In this document: piece after piece, positions 3,477 through 21,112 of the stretch
Position numbering within the stretch: position 1 is the stretch's first letter
How the letters are laid out: the number at the start of each line of letters is the position of its first letter
From: Desulfovibrio sp. MES5
Lineage (GTDB): Bacteria > Desulfobacterota > Desulfovibrionia > Desulfovibrionales > Desulfovibrionaceae
Assembly (NCBI RefSeq): GCF_002237645.1
Contig: NZ_MJUZ01000049.1
Location: forward strand, 1 to 64,000
Reading direction: 5' to 3'
Length of the DNA stretch: 64,000 bases
The notes under the pieces: generated by a model
Told to the model about the DNA's origin: nothing
The model's input: only the letters and a program-made list of their open reading frames with translations
Databases searched by the model: none
Position numbers and translations under genes: made by a program

Positions 3477-5516
3477 CTAGTCGGGCAAGGCAATCAAGCG
3501 CGCCCGCAACACCCGGATGCGGTCGCGCAACTGGGCGGCCTGCTCGAATTCCAGATCACGGGCGGCCTGGCGCATTTCCTTTTCAAGCTTGGCCACCAGC
3601 AGGGCCGTATCCTCTGCGGTAAGCGGAACTGCGTCCGGCTCCTGCCCCTTGCCCTTGCCTCGGCCCTTGCCACGCCCGCGTGAAGCGCCATCTTCCACAT
3701 ACAAACTATCCAGCGGAGACTCAAGACTTTTCCGTGTGCTGGTCGGCGTGATGCCGTGTTCTTCGTTATGCGCCGTCTGCCTGGCGCGGCGGCGCGCGGT
3801 TTCGTCCATGGCGGCCTTCATCGAATCCGTCATCTTGTCGGCGTACAGGATGACCCGGCCCTGCGCATTGCGCGCGGCGCGGCCAAATGTCTGAATGAGT
3901 GAACCGACGGATCGCAAAAAGCCTTCCTTGTCCGCGTCCAGAATGCAGACAAGGGACACTTCGGGGATGTCCAGGCCCTCGCGCAGCAGGTTGATGCCCA
4001 CCAGCACGTCAAACTCGCCCATGCGTAGCGCGCGGATGATCTGCATGCGTTCAAGGGTGTCGATGTCAGAATGGAGATAGCGCGCGCGCACCCCCATGTT
4101 GCAGCAGTATTCCGTCAGGTCTTCGGCCATGCGTTTGGTCAGGGTGGTCACAAGCACTCTCTCGCCCCGGCTGACGCGGCCACGGCACTCGCCCAGCAGG
4201 TCTTCCATCTGCCCCTTGGTGGGGCGTACCTCCACCTGGGGATCCACAAGCCCCGTGGGCCGGATGATCTGCTCGGCCACAATGCCCTGCGCCTGATCAC
4301 GCTCGTACTTGCCCGGCGTGGCCGACACATAGACCACCTGATTGAGCAGGGCCGTAAATTCGTTGAACTGTAAAGGCCTGTTGTCCAGGGCCGACGGCAG
4401 GCGAAAGCCGTAGTCCACCAGGGTGGTCTTGCGCGAGCGGTCGCCCTTGTACATGGCCCCCACCTGCGGGACGGTAATGTGCGACTCGTCCACAAAAAGG
4501 AGAAAATCCTTGGGAAAATAGTTGAGCAGGCACGAGGGCGGCTCGCCCGCCACGCGGCCATCAAGGTGGCGGGTATAGTTTTCGATGCCGTTGCAATAGC
4601 CAAGTTCTTCAATCATTTCAAGATCAAGCTGTGTGCGCTGTTCAAGGCGCTGGGCCTCCACAAGCTTGCCCTGTTCTTTGAACAGAATAAGCCGTTCCGC
4701 CAGTTCGTCACGAATGTCGCTGGCGGCGCGCTTGAGGTTATCCTGCGCGGACACGAAGTGGCTGGCCGGGTACAGCACAGTCTTGGACACATCCGCCAGC
4801 ACTTCGCCTGTGAGCGGGTCAATTTCGCGCATGGCGTCGATGTCGTCGCCAAAAAATTCCAGCCGCAGGGCGCGCTCGTGATGGTAGGCCGGGATGATTT
4901 CAAGGGCGTCGCCGCGCACGCGGAACGTGCCGCGGTGGAAGTCATAGTCATTGCGCTCGTAATGCACTTCCACAAGGCGCGTGATGAGTTTGTCCATAGG
5001 GAAATGCTGGCCCACCTCAACGGGAATGACCATCTTTGCGTAGTATTCCGGCGAGCCAAGGCCGTAGATGCACGAGACAGAGGCCACGATTATGACGTCG
5101 CGCCGCGTGAGCAGGGCGTGGGTGGCGGCGTGGCGCAGCTTGTCGATGTTGTCGTTGATGGAAGAATCTTTTTCAATATAGGTGTCAGAGGCCGGCACAT
5201 AGGCCTCTGGCTGGTAATAGTCGTAATAGCTGACAAAATACTCCACGGCATTGCGCGGAAAAAGCGCGCGGAATTCGCCGTACAGCTGGGCGGCCAGGGT
5301 CTTGTTGGGCGCGAGCACCAGGGCCGGGCGGTTGCAGCGGGCAATCACGTTGGCCATGGTAAAGGTCTTGCCGGACCCCGTGACGCCCAGAAGCACCTGG
5401 GCGGGCACCCCTGCCTGAATGTTGCTCACCAGTTCGTCGATGGCCGTGGGCTGGTCGCCTGTGGGAACATAGGATGTTTCCAGGCTGAAAGGGGTAGCGG
5501 ACTTGTCTTCCATCAT
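3477..5516 (-). CDS. uvrB: Excinuclease ABC subunit B (UvrB)
   Basis: 679 residues. The helicase-like damage-verification subunit of nucleotide excision repair, working with UvrA and UvrC. It shows Walker [10 protein letters not shown] (about residue 46), the beta-hairpin motif [12 protein letters not shown], the DEAD-like box FVDESH, helicase motifs [16 protein letters not shown] and QTFGRAARN, and a C-terminal UVR domain ([22 protein letters not shown]) that binds UvrC. A Gly/Arg/Lys-rich linker ([11 protein letters not shown]) precedes the UVR domain. Two adjacent ATG codons could serve as start; the first is used. It is divergent from the hypothetical gene at 5571. Confidence 0.97.
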
Positions 5517-11962: not shown

Positions 11963-12882
11963 TTATGATTTATGCACCGCGGCCAAAACCGTAGCGCAAA
12001 AAATGCCGCCAAGAATGGCCGCAGTGCTTATGCCAAGGCGCAGAGTCAGGGCCTCCCCCATAAACAGCGCGCCTCCAAGAGCTGTAATAAGCGGCACGCT
12101 CAACTGCACCACGGCGGCAGTAGGCACGCTGAGCCTGGGCAAAACGGAATACCACAGCACATAACCAAGGGCCGAGGCAATGCCTCCGGCGACGAGGGCG
12201 CAGAGCACGCCTGCGAAGGGCAGCGTCGGGCCGCCTCCCCAAGCCACGCCACCGGCCCCGGCATGTTCCAGCCAGGCCAGGGGCAGAAAAAGCAGCGCCA
12301 GCGGCAGGCAACGCACAAAATTGCCCGCAGTGGCGGCCACGGGCGCGCTGTTGCGGCGGCCCAGCAGCGTATAGACGGCCCATGACGCGCCGGAAAGAAA
12401 GATGATGGCAGACGGCCATAGGGGGGGCGCGTCCAGACCCGGCAACAGTAGATACACTAGGCCCGCCATGGCCAGGGTTATGCCCAGAGCCTGAGCGCGG
12501 CTGGGGCGCTGTCCGAGGGCCACTCCCGCGCCCACCATGCTTGTCTGAACGGCCACGGCAATAATGAGGGCTCCGGCGGCGGCGGACAGATTGACATACG
12601 CCCAGGAAAAACAGGCCATATAGGAAAAAAGGGCCAGGGCCGCGCTCCAGCTGCCGAACTGCAAGGCCCGCTCGCCGCGCAGCCTGGTGAGCAGCCACAG
12701 CACAGCGGCAGCGGAAACGGATCGCAAAACGGTGTAGCTCACGGCGTCCATGCCCGTCCCAAAAAGGGCCATACGGCACAGCAGCGAATTGGCCGCGAAA
12801 AAAATCATGCAGACCAGCGTGATGCCCGCCGTCAGGGCCATGCCGTTTTGGCGCGCGCCATTGGAACGGCTGCCGGCCGAAG

Positions 12883-12886
<4 letters not shown>
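11963..12886 (-). CDS. EamA-family (DMT) transporter
   Basis: 307 residues with about ten predicted transmembrane helices in two EamA halves, e.g. ALTAGITLVCMIFFAANSLL and VVQLSVPLITALGGALFMGE near the C-terminus. DMT carriers move small metabolites across the inner membrane; the substrate cannot be read from sequence. The start overlaps the stop of the sigma-54 activator by 4 nt (ATGA), so it is the last gene of the glycyl-radical operon. A role in moving the sulfonate or its products is an inference from that position. Confidence 0.85.
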
Positions 12887-14283
<1,397 letters not shown>

Positions 14284-14310: not shown

Positions 14311-15252
14311 TCAGTGTGAAATCTGCACCCGCTCGCCCAAAATGTCCAGAGCGGTCTTTTGCAGCCTGTCCATACGGGCTTTATCAAGACTCACTTCACC
14401 CATGGGAACCTCTCTGCCAAGAAAGTGGTACTTCTGGGTGCCCAGACGGTGATAGGCCAGCATTTCGTAGCTGACGCGCCCGAAGGGCTTGATGAATTCC
14501 GCAATGGCGCTGATGGCGTCCTCGGTGTCATTGAAGCCGGGAATGACGGGCGTGCGGGCCAGTATGGGCACATCGGAAAATTCCTCGGCCAGAATGCGGA
14601 AATTTTCAAGGATGCGGGCATTGGGCAGGCCTGTATGCGCCTTGTGCACAGCGCTGTCCATATGCTTGATGTCATAAAGAACGTAGTTCAGATAGGGCGC
14701 AGCCTCGCGCACGGTTTCGGCGGGCACCATACCACAGGTCTCAACCGCCGTTTTGATGCGGCGGGTGCGGGCTTCACGCAGCAAAGCCACGGCAAAGGCT
14801 CCCTGCAACAGGGGTTCGCCGCCCGAAAGGGTCAGGCCGCCGCCGGAGCGGGCGTAAAAGGCCATGTCCTGCTCCACAACGCGCAGCACATCGTCAACAG
14901 TACGTTTTTTTCCATATACCAGCAAACCCTGGGCAGGACAAACTGCGGCGCAGGGCATGTCGCAGCCCGCGCAATGGCTGCGATCAATGACCGGCTTGTC
15001 ATCGTCGCCGCAGGTTATGGAGCCGTGGGGACAGGCGGGAATGCAGTGCCCGCATTTGGAAATGTCAATGCAGCGGCCATGATTGCAGGCCAGTTCCGGA
15101 TAGGGCTTTTGCGACTCCGGATTGCTGCACCACTGGCATGAAAGGGAACATCCCTTCAGGAATACAATGGTCCGTATGCCCGGGCCGTCGTGTACGGAAT
15201 ACTTTTGAACGTTGAACACCATGCCTTGCTGCTGGCTGTCATCCAGGCACAT
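14311..15252 (-). CDS. islB: Glycyl radical enzyme activase (IslB-like radical SAM protein)
   Basis: 313 residues. Generates the glycyl radical on the neighbouring enzyme by reductive cleavage of SAM. The radical-SAM cluster motif CSLSCQWC (CxxxCxxC) lies near residue 35. An inserted ferredoxin-like domain carries further clusters (CGHCIPACPHG, CAGCDMPCAAVCPAQG), typical of activases for non-PFL glycyl radical enzymes. GGEPLLQ and VETCGMV are SAM-binding motifs. It lies 137 nt downstream of the lyase gene, which fixes its partner. The symbol follows the partner's assignment. Confidence 0.88.
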   Translation of the reverse strand: MCLDDSQQQGMVFNVQKYSVHDGPGIRTIVFLKGCSLSCQWCSNPESQKPYPELACNHGRCIDISKCGHCIPACPHGSITCGDDDKPVIDRSHCAGCDMPCAAVCPAQGLLVYGKKRTVDDVLRVVEQDMAFYARSGGGLTLSGGEPLLQGAFAVALLREARTRRIKTAVETCGMVPAETVREAAPYLNYVLYDIKHMDSAVHKAHTGLPNARILENFRILAEEFSDVPILARTPVIPGFNDTEDAISAIAEFIKPFGRVSYEMLAYHRLGTQKYHFLGREVPMGEVSLDKARMDRLQKTALDILGERVQISH

Positions 15253-15389: not shown

Positions 15390-17885
15390 CTACATCACGT
15401 CGTGTTCGGTACGGGCGATAAGGTCATTTTGCAGATCGGGCGACAGGTCCACAAAGTAGGCGCTGTAACCGGCGATACGCACGATAAGGTTGCGGTATTT
15501 CTGCGGGTCTTTCTGGGCGGCCACAAGGGTTCCCTTGTTGACCACGTTGAACTGCACGTGCCAGAGCTTGAGATCGCAGAAGGTGCGGATGAAGGACACC
15601 AGCTTTTCCGTGCCCTGCTCGCCTTCCACGCACTTGGGCGTGAACTTGATGTTCAGCATACGGGCGGCGCGGTCGCGCAGGCCCATATTTTTGGTGGTGT
15701 AGTTGGAAAGCAGCACCGCCGTGGGGCCGTTGACGTCTGCGCCGTGCGAGGCCGAGGAACCGTCGGACAGGGGGAAGCTGTCGGTGCGGCCGTTGGGCGT
15801 GGCGGAAACCACCTTGCCAAAGGGCACATGCGAGGTGAAGGGCACGTAGCGCACGTCGTTGTGGATGCCCAGATCCTTCATGGAGTACTTGTTGCCGTAT
15901 TCCACGGAAATCTTGTCGATTTCGCGGCCAATGGCATCGGCGTATTCGTCATTGTTGCCATAGCAGGGGGCAGAGCGCAGCAGGGCGCGCACGTCGTCAT
16001 AGCCTTCGAAGTTAGCGTCAATGGCTTCAATGAGCTTGCCCATGGTCAGCTTCTTTTCTTCAAAGACCAGCTTTTTCACGGCAGCCAGGGAGTCCACCAC
16101 GGTGCCCAGGCCCATGTACTCAAAGTAGCCCAGGTTGATGCCTTCGGGGATCTGCTCCTGATGCAGGTCGATGCAGTGCTTCATGCACAGGTCGTGCATG
16201 GCCGAGCCCATGGGCTGGGCAAAGTGCTGCGCGCGCAGCTTGTTGATGATGTACTGCTGGGTGAAAGCCGTCTTGAGGAAGAGCATGTGCTGTTCCACAT
16301 AGGCGTTCCAGAATTCGTCCCAGGTTTTGAAGTTGCGCGGATCGCCCGTTTCAACGCCCAGCTTCTGGTCGCCGTACTTCTTCATGCGGCCATTGCGCAG
16401 CACCATTTCCACAGCGGCGGCAAAGTTGATGTACGCGCCGCCGGAGGTGTAGGTATCGCGGTTGGGCATGCGGGCCTCTGTGCAGCCGGAAACGGCGTAG
16501 TCCAGTGCCTCTTCAAAGGTCGCGCCCTTGGAAACGTACAGGGGCACGATTTCTTCGTCATTGATAAGCTTGGGGAAGCCGGAACCGTACTTGATGGTTT
16601 CAGCCACGTCCCAAAGATAACGCTCCGGCGCGCGGGAATGGATACGGGCCGCAAGGTCCGGGTAATGCAGCGGGAATTCACGCTTGGACTTGAGTATCAG
16701 GTAGGTGAGGTCATTGCTGGCGTCGCGGCCGTCCGGGGTCTGTCCGCCGACGGTCACGGCTTCCCAGTGGGCGTAACCTTCGTTGAAAGCGCCGCCGGTG
16801 GGCGAGATGTACATGTCGATGAACTCGGCCATGCCCACCCACATGCACTCCAGCAGTTCCATAGCCTGGGCTTCGGTGATCTTGCCCGCAGCGCGGTCCT
16901 GCTTGTAGTAGGGGTAGAAATACTGGTCCATACGGCCATTGGAAATGGTGGTGCCGGTCTTTTGCTCGATGCGCGAAAACATCTGGGTGAACCACTGGCT
17001 CTGGCAGGCTTCCCAGAAATCACGGGCGGGTTCGCCGGGCACGCGCTCGGCATTTTCAGCCATGCGCAGCAGTTCGGCCTTGCGCGTGGGATCGGATTCT
17101 TTTTCAGCCATTTCACGCGCCAACACAGCGTGACGCTTGGCCCACAGCACAATGGCGTCGCTCACGATGACCACGGCTTCAAGGAAGGGGCGCTTTTCGC
17201 GGTCGTCCTTGGCGCTCATAGGATCAAGGGCGGCCAGCTTTTCTTCGGCTTCTTTCTTGATGCTGTTGAAGCCGCGCTTGAGGATCTTTTCAAAGTCGTG
17301 CACCCACTGGATGGACGAACGGAACGAAGAGGTCTCATTGACGATGAAGCGCGAGATGAGCCCTTCAGGATCGTCATAGGTAAGCTTGTGCACTTCGGCG
17401 GGCAGGGCCGCGTTCAGGGCTTCATGGTAGGTCTTGCCTTTCCAGTAGGGAGCGATTTCTTCCACAACGCGCTTGGCGTCTTCGGGCGTAATGGTAGCCG
17501 GCGAGGTTTGACGCGTGGGCAGATCGCGCACGGCTATATCCAAGAAGTCGCCATCCAGTTCAGGATAGAGGATGCCGTAGCGGCCGTCGCACCCGGCGCG
17601 TCCCAGCAGCAGCTGCCCTTCCTGCACATAGACGGTGATGTTCTGGGCAATGTGCATGAGAGCCTTGGCCCAGCGCAATACCAGAGGCTGCCCTTCGGTC
17701 TGCTCCATAGACTGGGTGAAATACAGGGCGCGCTCGATATCAATACGGGGCTTCTGCCCTTCAAACCGCTCAAGCAGATTGAAAACGCGGGGGTGGGTTT
17801 TGCGGAATCTGTCTTCCTTGCCCTCAATCTTGTCAAACAGACGCTGCTCCTGAGGGGACCGGCATTCGCAAGTGGTCATGCTCAT
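15390..17885 (-). CDS. islA: Glycyl radical enzyme, isethionate sulfite-lyase type (IslA)
   Basis: 831 residues from the ATG preceded by AGGAG at 8 nt; an upstream in-frame extension has no ribosome site. Isethionate sulfite-lyase splits 2-hydroxyethanesulfonate into acetaldehyde and sulfite, an electron acceptor for sulfate reducers. The catalytic Cys-Glu motif [11 protein letters not shown] puts Cys at 468 and Glu at 470. FRSSIQW gives Arg189 and Gln193, and Trp is at 374. The glycyl radical loop is RIAGYSAYF (Gly806). As I recall, these positions coincide with the sulfonate-binding residues described for IslA, shifted by one near the C-terminus. The related dihydroxypropanesulfonate lyase HpsG is the main alternative. 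Confidence 0.85.
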
Positions 17886-17993
17886 CACGCTACTCCTGAA
17901 ATAGTATGAATATAAAGCGCGCGGGCTTGCGCATATGCCGCCGCGCGGAGAATGCCTTGTGTTTTTGGCAATCCTCGTTGGTTGCCCCCTGTT

Positions 17994-18009
17994 TGCATGG
18001 GACATGCCA
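17994..18009 (-). promoter_or_regulatory. Sigma-54 (-24/-12) promoter of the lyase operon
   Basis: On the minus strand the sequence reads TGGCATGTCCCATGCA, with GG and GC separated by exactly 10 nt as sigma-54 promoters require. The predicted start, about 12 nt downstream, leaves a leader of about 100 nt before the lyase ATG. The operon encodes a GAFTGA activator, which supports the call. Confidence 0.8.
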
Positions 18010-18096
18010 TAATTTATAACATACTGATATAAAATGCTTTTTTTAAATTTTCTCTCTTTTGCCTCCTCAGCTCCTGCGCCAGCTTTCACAATAGCC

Positions 18097-18106
18097 GCAA
18101 ATTTGC
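18097..18106. promoter_or_regulatory. Palindromic site GCAAATTTGC, copy 1
   Basis: Perfect 10-bp palindrome about 115-125 nt upstream of the predicted minus-strand start, a normal distance for an enhancer of a sigma-54 activator. The AT-rich stretch 18010-18060 lies between it and the promoter and could bend. Confidence 0.7.
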
Positions 18107-18150
18107 ACCACTCAGTAAGATTTTCTGATAAAAGGGGCTGATTATGCGAC

Positions 18151-18160
18151 GCAAATTTGC
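18151..18160. promoter_or_regulatory. Palindromic site GCAAATTTGC, copy 2
   Basis: Same 10-bp palindrome, 54 bp from copy 1. It lies between the two divergent sigma-54 promoters and could serve either. Confidence 0.7.
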
Positions 18161-18272
18161 ATCATCCACAAAATTCCGCTCTTTCTGACGGGGCTCAAGC
18201 TACTGTCCGACAAGCATGATTCTCTTTTCACAAGCTATTATTATCGGCCCCAGACAATGATTACTGCTAGTT

Positions 18273-18282
18273 GCAAATTTGC
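18273..18282. promoter_or_regulatory. Palindromic site GCAAATTTGC, copy 3
   Basis: Same palindrome, about 130-140 nt upstream of the predicted plus-strand start. A strongly AT-rich segment (18296-18365) separates it from the promoter, as expected for a bendable or IHF-bound spacer. Confidence 0.7.
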
Positions 18283-18386
18283 GACCAGCTTTTTCTCAAA
18301 ACCACATTTCAGACAAGTTTTTAATGTAATATATAGATAACATTTGATTTTTATTTTTAAAATCTGCACAACTCCTCAATCTGCTC

Positions 18387-18402
18387 TGGCACGCATCATG
18401 CA
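18387..18402 (+). promoter_or_regulatory. Sigma-54 (-24/-12) promoter of the amidohydrolase/symporter operon
   Basis: TGGCACGCATCATGCA has a consensus -24 TGGCAC and the -12 GC at the required 10-nt spacing from GG. The predicted start is near 18413, leaving about 70 nt before the first start codon at 18482. Confidence 0.82.
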
Positions 18403-18481
18403 AAACGAAAAAAATCACAAAGCATGACAGGTTCGTGTATGCTGTCCCACTTTTCGTAACCGTTCAGGCAGAGAGGAGAAG

Positions 18482-18610
18482 ATGAGAAAAACATCACATT
18501 CCACACCTGCGGCAGGTGCCTCAGGCATGCCCGCGAGGCAGGCCGGAGCTCGTGGACGCGTCAGCCGGAAAGCACGCCCTTCAACACTTCAGACAGTTCA
18601 GGAGATCTGA
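18482..18610 (+). CDS. Small ORF, 42 aa, upstream of the amidohydrolase gene
   Basis: The ATG follows a strong ribosome site (GAGAGGAGAAG). The peptide is basic (MRKTSHSTPAAG..., many Arg/Lys) and has no recognisable domain or membrane segment. Its stop lies 2 nt before the next ATG, whose own GGAG site is inside this ORF, so translation is probably coupled. It may be a coupling leader rather than a functional protein. Confidence 0.5.
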   Translation: MRKTSHSTPAAGASGMPARQAGARGRVSRKARPSTLQTVQEI

Positions 18611-18612
18611 GC

Positions 18613-19446
18613 ATGAAGGTCATCGACTTTCGCTTCCGTCCCAACACTCCGGAAATCATCAACGGCATCAAAAACAGCGCCATGTTCAAGGCCGCCTGCA
18701 AGGCCATAGGCTTTGACAGGCGCAAGCCACAACCCCTGGAAGACATTGTGGCCGACCTTGACCGGCTCAATGTCGAGCTGGGCGTCATCACTGGCCGCGA
18801 CTGTGAAACAACTTACGGTTTTCCGGCCAACAACCAGAGCGTTTTGGAATTCTGCCGGGCCTACCCCGAAAAATTTGTGGGATTCTGGGGCATTGACCCT
18901 CACAAAAAAATGGCCGCTCTGCGCGAGATCGCACACGTCACTTCTGAATACGGCATGAAGGGCATAGCCATTGACCCTTATCTTGCCCACATTCCCGCTT
19001 CCGAGGCCCGTTTTTACCCCATTTACGCCAAGTGTTGCGAACTCGGGCTGCCGGTGTTCATCACCATGGCCCCACCCCCGCAGGTTCCCGGAGCAATTCT
19101 GGAGTATGCGGATCCGCGCGACGTTGATAAGGTGGCCCGCGACTTCCCCGAACTCACGCTCATCATGAGCCACGGCGGTTACCCCTTTGTGAATGAAGCC
19201 GTTTACACCTGCCTGCGCAATGCCAACGTGTATATGGACATTTCTGAATACGAACGCGCCCCCATGGTGGACGTATACGTACAGGCCATGAACGAGCTCA
19301 TTACCGACAAGGTGCTTTTTGCCAGCGCCCACCCCTTTGTGGAGCTGGCAGACGCTCTGGACGCATATGAAGCTTTTGAACTGACTGATGAGGCCCGCCG
19401 CAAGGTCATGTATGAAAACGCCCGCCGCGTGCTGGGCCTGGCATAA
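18613..19446 (+). CDS. Amidohydrolase-2 fold protein lacking canonical metal ligands
   Basis: 277 residues resembling the PF04909 amidohydrolase/decarboxylase TIM-barrel family: FVGFWGIDPH, GMKGIAIDPYL, GLPVFITMAPPP, LIMSHGGYPFVNEA and a C-terminal NARRVLGL. The N-terminal HxH metal motif is replaced by RxR (IDFRFRPN). The late Asp of the usual F(G/A)SD(Y/W)P motif is Ala (FASAHP). The strand-6 His (MSHGG) remains. It may therefore be metal-free, a binding protein or an altered enzyme. First full-length gene of a sigma-54 operon with an MHS symporter, divergent from the sulfonate lyase. Substrate unknown. Confidence 0.8.
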   Translation: MKVIDFRFRPNTPEIINGIKNSAMFKAACKAIGFDRRKPQPLEDIVADLDRLNVELGVITGRDCETTYGFPANNQSVLEFCRAYPEKFVGFWGIDPHKKMAALREIAHVTSEYGMKGIAIDPYLAHIPASEARFYPIYAKCCELGLPVFITMAPPPQVPGAILEYADPRDVDKVARDFPELTLIMSHGGYPFVNEAVYTCLRNANVYMDISEYERAPMVDVYVQAMNELITDKVLFASAHPFVELADALDAYEAFELTDEARRKVMYENARRVLGLA

Positions 19447-19456
19447 GGAGAATGAA

Positions 19457-20824
19457 ATGAGCGTTGCCGCTACCGACGTACAAGCACAAAAAAACCTGCG
19501 CCGCGTGGTTATATCCTCCCTTATGGGCGCTGTTATCGAATGGTACGACTTCTTCCTCTACGGCGTCGTGGCCGGACTTGTGTTCAACAAGCTCTATTTT
19601 CCCTCATTTTCGCCGGGCGTGGGCACCATTCTGGCTTTTGCCACCTTTGCCGTGGGCTTTGTGGCCAGACCGCTGGGCGGCTTCATTTTCGGCCATTTTG
19701 GCGACAAGATAGGCCGCAAGAAAATGCTCATCCTCACGCTTGAGATTATGGGCGTGGCCACTGTGCTCATCGGCTGCATCCCCTCCTATGACAGCATAGG
19801 CATCTGGGCGCCCATTCTGCTGGTCATCTGCCGCCTTGCCCAGGGCATCGGCCTTGGCGGCGAATGGGGCGGCGCTGTGCTTATGGCGTATGAGTCCGCA
19901 CCGGCGCACAAGCGCGCCTTTTACGGCAGCCTGCCCCAGATCGGCCTTTCACTGGGCCTCATGCTGGCTTCAGGCGTCATTGGCCTGCTCTCCTTCCTGC
20001 TGCCCGAAGAAGCCTTCATTTCCTGGGGCTGGCGCATAGCCTTTGTTCTGAGCGCCGTCCTGGTGCTGGTGGGCGCGTATATCCGCACCTCAGTTCAGGA
20101 AACCCAGGACTTCTCCTCCGCCAAAAAGGAAGTGGCAAAAATCCGCTACCCCATGCTTGAAGCCTTCAAGCGCTATCCCAAAACCCTTACGGCCTGCGTG
20201 GGCGCACGCTTTGTGGAAGGCATCGCCTTCAACGTCTTTGGCGTGTTTTCACTAACCTATCTTACGCAGACCTGCGGCGTCAGCCGCACCGTGGCCCTGA
20301 TGGCCGTGGTGGTGGCATCTGGCGTCATGGCCTGCTTTATTCCCATGTGGGGGTCCATGGCTGACCGCATCGGCAAGGCCCGTATTTTCGGAACCGCCGC
20401 CATACTGCTCGGCGTGACCGCCTACCCCGTCTTCTGGGTATTGCACAACTATGCGACCACCAACCTCTTCTTTGTCTACATGGCCATTATCGTGCCCTTC
20501 GGCATCATCTACGCCGCCGCGTACGCCAGCATGGCCAGCCTGTTCTCCGAAAGCTTCGATCCCACGGTGCGCTACTCAAGCATCTCATTCGTGTACCAGT
20601 TCTCGGGCATCTTCGCTTCGGGCCTGACGCCGATGATCGCCACCATGCTGGTGCAGGCCAACGACTCGCAGCCCTGGTATCTCTGCGGCTACCTGCTTGT
20701 GGCTGGCATCATCAGCTCTCTGGCGACCGTCTGGATCAGCAACCTGAAGTCAGCCAAGGCCGAGCCCCGCGCGCTGCCCACTGACGACGCTGTTGTCGTC
20801 GCTGCCAATGTTGTGCCGGAATAA
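19457..20824 (+). CDS. MHS-family MFS symporter (metabolite:H+ symporter)
   Basis: 455 residues, about twelve transmembrane helices. The N-terminus GAVIEWYDFFLYG is the signature of the MHS group (proline/betaine, shikimate, alpha-ketoglutarate permeases). The MFS loop motifs GHFGDKIGRKKML and the RLAQGIGLGGEWGGA segment follow. MHS members usually import organic anions or zwitterions with protons. It starts 10 nt after the amidohydrolase stop with AAGGAG before the ATG. It probably imports the substrate of the divergent lyase or of the amidohydrolase-like protein; known isethionate clusters often have a TRAP carrier instead. Substrate is inference. Confidence 0.9.
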   Translation: MSVAATDVQAQKNLRRVVISSLMGAVIEWYDFFLYGVVAGLVFNKLYFPSFSPGVGTILAFATFAVGFVARPLGGFIFGHFGDKIGRKKMLILTLEIMGVATVLIGCIPSYDSIGIWAPILLVICRLAQGIGLGGEWGGAVLMAYESAPAHKRAFYGSLPQIGLSLGLMLASGVIGLLSFLLPEEAFISWGWRIAFVLSAVLVLVGAYIRTSVQETQDFSSAKKEVAKIRYPMLEAFKRYPKTLTACVGARFVEGIAFNVFGVFSLTYLTQTCGVSRTVALMAVVVASGVMACFIPMWGSMADRIGKARIFGTAAILLGVTAYPVFWVLHNYATTNLFFVYMAIIVPFGIIYAAAYASMASLFSESFDPTVRYSSISFVYQFSGIFASGLTPMIATMLVQANDSQPWYLCGYLLVAGIISSLATVWISNLKSAKAEPRALPTDDAVVVAANVVPE

Positions 20825-21043: not shown

Positions 21044-21112
21044 GCGGGGGAGGGACCCTTTTGCAAAAGGATCCCTCCCCCACGCCCCCACCCCCTAAAA
21101 CTCTTATTCTTT
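21044..21112. repeat. GC-rich palindromic terminator-like repeat R1, copy B
   Basis: Core GGGGGAGGGACCCTTTTG / CAAAAGGATCCCTCCCCC followed by the G/C-run arm ending CCCCCTAAAACTC. It is inverted relative to copies A and C and lies between convergent transcription units. Confidence 0.7.

Follow-up and report, generated by a model that had tools for sequence, protein, structure and literature searches.

Introduction

When Desulfovibrio and Bilophila respire isethionate and taurine, sulfide is produced in the gut. In the parts of the literature covered here, what is known of the isethionate gene switch comes from a knockout and from a prediction that is a decade old and was made under another pathway name. 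The knockout is that of islR in D. alaskensis G20, which abolishes growth on isethionate (Peck et al. 2019, PMC6386719). The prediction concerns the DVU2827 regulon of the Desulfovibrionales, which was proposed with binding sites in five genomes, assigned to pyruvate metabolism, and accompanied by a binding motif published as a figure (Kazakov et al. 2015, PMC4641369). Two further descriptions are of the D. piger GRE, linked to an MFS transporter whose family also counts the putative isethionate transporter IseU among its members (PMC6453916), and of a Bilophila cluster that combines a PAS-domain regulator with a predicted amidohydrolase and is induced by taurine and isethionate (PMC8667426); the portion of PMC11668362 covered here has no text on the regulator. 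For the sulfate branch, the HcpR consensus TTGTGA-N6-TCACAA has been described upstream of sat and apsAB in Desulfovibrio, with repression predicted (Rodionov et al. 2004, PMC545781; also PMC5701242). In the text of the open-licence literature we found nothing on isethionate together with HcpR and, among the matches listed and by title, no sulfonate paper that treats HpsG with sigma-54 enhancers and no statement of the explicit operator GCAAATTTGC described below.

The locus studied here lies in a 64-kb stretch of Desulfovibrio DNA (the window) and resembles both regulator-bearing systems. Like the DVU2827 regulon, as far as the excerpts of PMC4641369 describe it, it combines an EBP gene within the operon, a GRE with its activase, an amidohydrolase gene with its own sigma-54 promoter, and an MFS transporter gene, which belongs to that regulon in D. 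desulfuricans and D. piger; unlike the window's IslR, which has GAFTGA, DVU2827 carries GAFSGA. With the isl cluster of Peck et al. the window shares islA, islB, and the regulator gene islR, but that cluster has a TRAP transporter in place of MFS, and the excerpts of PMC6386719 give no binding site. We consider IslR the counterpart of DVU2827 and of D. alaskensis G20 islR, a match made by gene context and not by sequence. The original prediction had called the regulator uncharacterised, a description made out of date by the predicted regulon of the one counterpart and the knockout phenotype of the other.

What was already known, comparing by gene context and by the partial descriptions in these sources, is thus the kind of regulon and the need for islR. 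Added here are an explicit operator with its geometry, the occurrence of this operator in a paralogous HpsG module as well, and a CRP/HcpR-like element that is conserved among relatives; the excerpts of PMC4641369 contain no mention of operator geometry or of a CRP-like element for the DVU2827 regulon. The promoters and operators, their conservation and geometry, and their co-occurrence with IslR were computed directly. With a probability of roughly 0.86, we read the region as an enhancer that consists of predicted IslR operators and is shared by the two sigma-54 promoters diverging from it in an isethionate-respiration locus (Table 1).

Table 1. Features of the isl locus, in window coordinates (distances are from operator centres)
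Feature	Position	Strand	Remarks
EamA-family transporter gene	11963..12886	-	last of left operon; relative in 4/35 full-flank islA loci
islR, PAS - sigma-54 AAA+ - Fis-type HTH activator	12883..14283	-	GAFTGA present
islB, radical-SAM activating enzyme	14311..15252	-	
islA, glycyl radical isethionate sulfite-lyase	15390..17885	-	start 17885 or 17879; 1535 bits to 7kq3
sigma-54 promoter of islA operon, TGGCATGTCCCATGCA	17994..18009	-	predicted start ~17983
predicted IslR operator 1, GCCGCAAATTTGCACC	18094..18109	.	106 b from islA -12
predicted IslR operator 2, GACGCAAATTTGCATC	18148..18163	.	160 b from islA -12; 54 b from operator 1
CRP/FNR (HcpR)-like element	18216..18233	.	TTGTGA half-site at 18228-18233 (- strand); second half degenerate, 2/6
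predicted IslR operator 3, GTTGCAAATTTGCGAC	18270..18285	.	full 16-mer; 123 b from right -12, 282 b from left
sigma-54 promoter of amidohydrolase-MFS operon, TGGCACGCATCATGCA	18387..18402	+	predicted start ~18413
amidohydrolase (Amidohydro_2)	18613..19446	+	accompanies islA in 23/35 full-flank loci
MFS metabolite:H+ symporter family, possible isethionate importer	19457..20824	+	relative in 3/35 full-flank loci

A predicted divergent pair of sigma-54 promoters

The left operon is ordered islA-islB-islR-eamA and the right one comprises the amidohydrolase and MFS transporter genes. Two features of the DVU2827 regulon thereby recur, namely a PAS-AAA+-HTH sigma-54 activator encoded in the GRE operon and -24/-12 elements upstream of both the GRE and the amidohydrolase genes. 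The genome encodes one IslA-type GRE and one distant GRE (34%). The amidohydrolase also accompanies HpsG modules.

The divergent -24/-12 pair of the original prediction is present where it had been placed, with the elements pointing away from each other, a GG-to-GC spacing of 10 nt in both, and agreeing predicted starts at 17983 and 18413. Scored against an eight-position consensus, TGGCATGTCCCATGCA and TGGCACGCATCATGCA reach 6/8 and 7/8, respectively, and scores of at least 6/8 occur at 8 places in the 64-kb window, both strands counted. Such an element lies within 330 b upstream in 70 of 100 islA loci (window included) compared with 18 of 1246 control windows. When ten loci picked for close IslA and amidohydrolase were aligned by eye, the right promoter was in register in eight, the exceptions being L023 and L026. 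The segments between palindromes and promoters are AT-rich as had been noted, with a GC content of 0.32 on the left and 0.28 on the right compared with 0.58 for the whole window.

Two candidate features of the region were rejected. An exact IHF consensus at 18017-18029 beside the left -24 is not a conserved part of the arrangement because the consensus is found there in 2 of the 57 loci compared (window included), with 0.5 expected. Likewise, a 42-codon open reading frame with a good ribosome site (18483-18611), considered as a leader peptide of the right operon, does not keep its frame in relatives (alignment by eye).

A conserved, predicted 16-bp operator upstream of islA

Three perfect copies of the 10-bp palindrome GCAAATTTGC lie between the promoters (18097-18106, 18151-18160, and 18273-18282), as originally predicted. 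They are also the only matches with up to one mismatch in the 64 kb, where about 6 would be expected by chance, so that the raw count is uninformative and the case rests on clustering: Nowhere else in the window does one 10-bp palindrome occur three times within 500 b, and any such triple arose in 1 of 60 Markov copies. The conserved unit turned out to be longer than the 10 bp first proposed. When the 700 b ahead of islA were searched in 77 loci besides the window, GCAAATTTGC was the most frequent among the 1024 perfect 10-bp palindromes (23 copies in 17 loci), with AAAAATTTTT as the runner-up (7/77), and the outer G-T-Y/R-A-C flanks are conserved as well, extending the unit to the 16-bp palindrome GTYGCAAATTTGCRAC (64 sites with at most one mismatch, from 35 loci). 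The third copy in the window fits this 16-mer in full and the first and second with two mismatches each.

In the window's genome, GTYGCAAATTTGCRAC with up to two mismatches occurs at 8 places, 3 of them in this region, and with up to three mismatches at 43 places compared with 27 for a reversed control pattern. The genome contains four further exact copies of GCAAATTTGC: Two (L002 and L003, both inside open reading frames) have an element of 6/8 and 5/8, about 360 and 500 b off, and the other two (L001 and L004) have none of 5/8 within 600 b.

Across genomes, the 16-mer with at most one mismatch was found in 41 of 121, the window's own included. Taking one locus per genome around 30 such matches, 23 lie within 1.5 kb of islA (again including the window's own), one (L098) lies beside a HpsG-type GRE, and six lie beside neither. 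Among 20 match stretches away from islA (L118-L137), three belong to an HpsG module, L134 proved to be islA, and 16 have no islA-like neighbour. One stretch, L121, carries the 16-mers GTTGCAATTTTGCAAC and GTTGCAAAATTGCAAC with starts 21 b apart (5248-5284), and none of the six isl-locus proteins is encoded in the 11 kb examined there.

Operator-promoter geometry

For the geometry, 103 islA loci (window included) were reduced to 90 by dropping those with less than 330 b upstream and near copies among promoter-bearing loci; 68 of the 90 have a -24/-12 element of at least 5/8 within 330 b of the start and 22 have none. Sites of at least 11 bits were then called with a matrix trained on these same loci. 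A site centre lies 103-108 b (ca. 106 b) from the islA -12 in 34 of the 68 promoter-bearing loci, and in 29 there is a second site at 155-162 b (ca. 159 b) as well, compared with a median of one locus per 6-b bin. The operator spacings of the window, 54 and 122 b, recur mostly as 51-54 b and more loosely as about 106-146 b, and operators 1 and 2 are about five helical turns apart. In the ten-locus alignment made by eye, the left promoter and the operators are in register across the diverged loci. Calculated from the coordinates, the three sites are centred 118.5, 172.5, and 294.5 b away from the predicted start on the left; for the predicted start on the right the distances, in ascending order, are 135.5, 257.5, and 311.5 b. 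In a scan of right-hand promoters, the distance of 123 b was matched by L008 alone (124 b); eight other loci have a promoter at other distances or without a site, and 16 lack a promoter.

IslR as the probable binder of the operators

To the original prediction the EBP of the left operon was the obvious binder of the shared sites, a reading that the comparative data favour. We called operators in the 700 b upstream of islA with a leave-one-out matrix at a threshold of at least 18 bits, for which the resulting counts are not fully independent because close relatives remain in the training set and because the loci themselves are related. Of the 25 loci whose IslR is at least 60% identical, 21 have such a site, compared with 7 of 1307 control windows, and 12 have two or more, compared with none of the 1307. 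The four loci of this class that lack one are L023, L035, L038, and L040. Where IslR is 41-59% identical, 6 of 23 loci have a site (two of these IslR matches being partial), and among loci without a visible IslR the site was found in 4 of the 7 whose flanks are long and in 12 of the 22 whose flanks are short.

It is unlikely, in our estimation, that another protein such as a one-component repressor or a different EBP binds the palindromes while IslR acts elsewhere. This alternative can draw on the 19 EBP-like matches in the window's genome, two of which besides IslR are whole-length (37% and 33% identical), and on the lack of an 18-bit site upstream of islA in 17 of the 23 loci with 41-59% IslR, including L044, L049, L054, and L060, of which L054 and L060 have a site of at least 11 bits on the amidohydrolase side. 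Against it, the presence of the operator tracks IslR identity, and does so in three genomes in which islR is remote from islA. Nine genomes were compared, L013 serving as the control with islR in place. L014, L019, and L041 have sites upstream of islA, no islR in the flanks examined, and a full-length islR of 73-77% elsewhere in the genome, with no site of at least 15 bits in the ca. 1.5 kb beside the relocated gene. L063 and L052, for which genome completeness is not stated, have neither a site nor a full-length IslR relative. L051 has no 18-bit site and an IslR relative of 45%, and in L045, which has a site, a 52% islR lies elsewhere in the genome and adjoins a second islA (L053) without an 18-bit site. 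L042 speaks against the IslR reading, with a 20-bit site and a best IslR relative of 40%.

The putative recognition helix points the same way in one further case, since the paralogous EBP of L119 adjoins the same operator and its helix RSTIFRK is identical to that of IslR. A general recognition-helix rule was considered and discarded: RST types often go with the operator, yet a site is also present in L079 (DRTT), whereas none of 18 bits was found for L040 and L038 (both DRST), and no simple rule links helix and operator. On these comparisons, together with the near-fixed distance to the promoter, the palindromes very probably bind IslR.

Isethionate as the probable substrate

The structures closest to the GRE of the window are 7kq3 (1535 bits), an isethionate sulfite-lyase of B. 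wadsworthia, and 5ymr (1502 bits), which is listed as a formate acetyltransferase and which we take to be D. vulgaris IslA, compared with 1214 bits for 6lon, presumably B. wadsworthia HpsG. Ten positions of 7kq3 have been mutated (R189, I192, Q193, W374, C468, E470, R678, V680, F682, and G805; PMC8473560). All ten are kept in the window GRE (alignment by eye), including I192 and F682, where 6lon has Leu and Ile, respectively. The GRE therefore shows neither mark used here for an HpsG, i.e., being closest to 6lon and having Ile at the place of F682, where it keeps Phe.

These results make it very unlikely that the system serves pyruvate or C4-dicarboxylate metabolism, in line with the 2015 reading, or 2,3-dihydroxypropanesulfonate, as the NCBIfam name HpsG would have it. 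Both readings have a source: Pyruvate metabolism is the assignment given in the excerpts of PMC4641369, and the NCBIfam models NF048011 (HpsG; 1546, cut-off 1000) and NF048010 (HpsH, the activase model; 447, cut-off 430) pass on the window proteins. We take both as broad models, and since they pass their cut-offs on IslA and IslB, automatic annotation may misname isethionate lyases; in addition, relatives carry a separate HpsG-type enzyme. It is extremely unlikely that the palindromes have no specific protein partner and act structurally, as hairpins or as A-tract/T-tract DNA with an intrinsic bend: They are self-complementary and AAATTT centres affect helix shape, but the outer GTY/RAC bases are conserved too, promoter distances vary little, and palindromes of other AT sequences occur less often.

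The same predicted operator in an HpsG module

Three species carry an HpsG-type module (L118, 7841-15924; L119, 2123-10325; L120, 2-7574). Like the isl locus, it comprises a GRE (62-63% to IslA), an activase, an amidohydrolase, an MFS transporter, and a related EBP, the last being 44% identical to IslR over its length in L119 and 47% and 40% over cut stretches in L118 and L120. Each GRE and amidohydrolase gene of the module has a -24/-12 element together with an operator of 21.6-27.6 bits, so that sigma-54 promoters and operator are shared with the isl locus as well. In contrast to the latter, one operator was found per promoter and the GRE is of the HpsG type, with 1594 bits to 6lon compared with 1170 for IslA in L118, the one for which structures were compared. 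Since the genomes G065 and G052 hold both modules, cross-talk between them is possible.

A CRP/FNR-like element between the operators

Between operators 2 and 3 lies a sequence that partly resembles the HcpR sites, as described in the excerpts of PMC545781, in half-site and spacing. Unlike those sites, it lies inside a sigma-54 enhancer and not at a -10/-35 type promoter, and one of its halves is degenerate; the islA loci L018 and L064 carry the full TTGTGA-N6-TCACAA. Of 66 non-redundant loci, 28 have TTGTGA or TCACAA in the interval 200-290 b from the islA -12, compared with 4, 9, and 5 of 66 for three other 90-b intervals (Fisher p ~9e-9, a value that ignores the relatedness of the loci). 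A loose CRP-type pattern with two mismatches says little genome-wide (85 places compared with 74 for the control), and the claim therefore rests on position and conservation. Candidate binders are encoded in the genome, which has ten HTH_Crp_2 matches, five of them above the cut-off. A separate TCACAA (18415-18420) lies past the right -12, at the predicted right start, and has counterparts in L008, L009, L010, L012, L013, and L030.

Proposed regulation

We infer a regulatory scheme in which IslR dimers would bind the three GTYGCAAATTTGCRAC-type palindromes through the Fis-type HTH and the PAS domain may sense isethionate or a close metabolite. IslR would then assemble, loop the AT-rich spacers, and remodel sigma-54 polymerase at both promoters. 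Of the three sites, operators 1 and 2 would mainly serve islA-islB-islR-eamA, and operator 3, which matches in full and is nearest to the right promoter, would probably mainly serve the amidohydrolase-MFS operon. Since IslR would be made from the islA operon itself, positive autoregulation is probable. Finally, output may be tuned to the electron-acceptor state by a CRP/FNR-type protein bound between operators 2 and 3, with HcpR as the leading candidate.

Taken further, and as a tentative idea that we ourselves consider doubtful, the islA enhancer could have two inputs: IslR would read the sulfonate at operators in fixed helical register, and an HcpR-type CRP/FNR protein of the kind predicted on sat and apsAB would read the electron-acceptor or nitrosative state between them, which together might let the cell change over between respiring sulfate and respiring sulfonate. 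Where a genome also carries the HpsG module, the operator common to both might allow cross-activation of C2 and C3 sulfonate respiration by IslR and its paralogue.

With the operator now explicit and its geometry nearly fixed, and with a further conserved element and a paralogous module at hand, this regulation becomes directly testable; together they also offer a DNA signature by which sulfonate-respiration operons can be found.

Past the MFS gene, the window carries an inverted repeat with 18-bp arms and no loop (GGGGGAGGGACCCTTTTG, 21046-21081), which is perhaps a terminator or a dispersed element.
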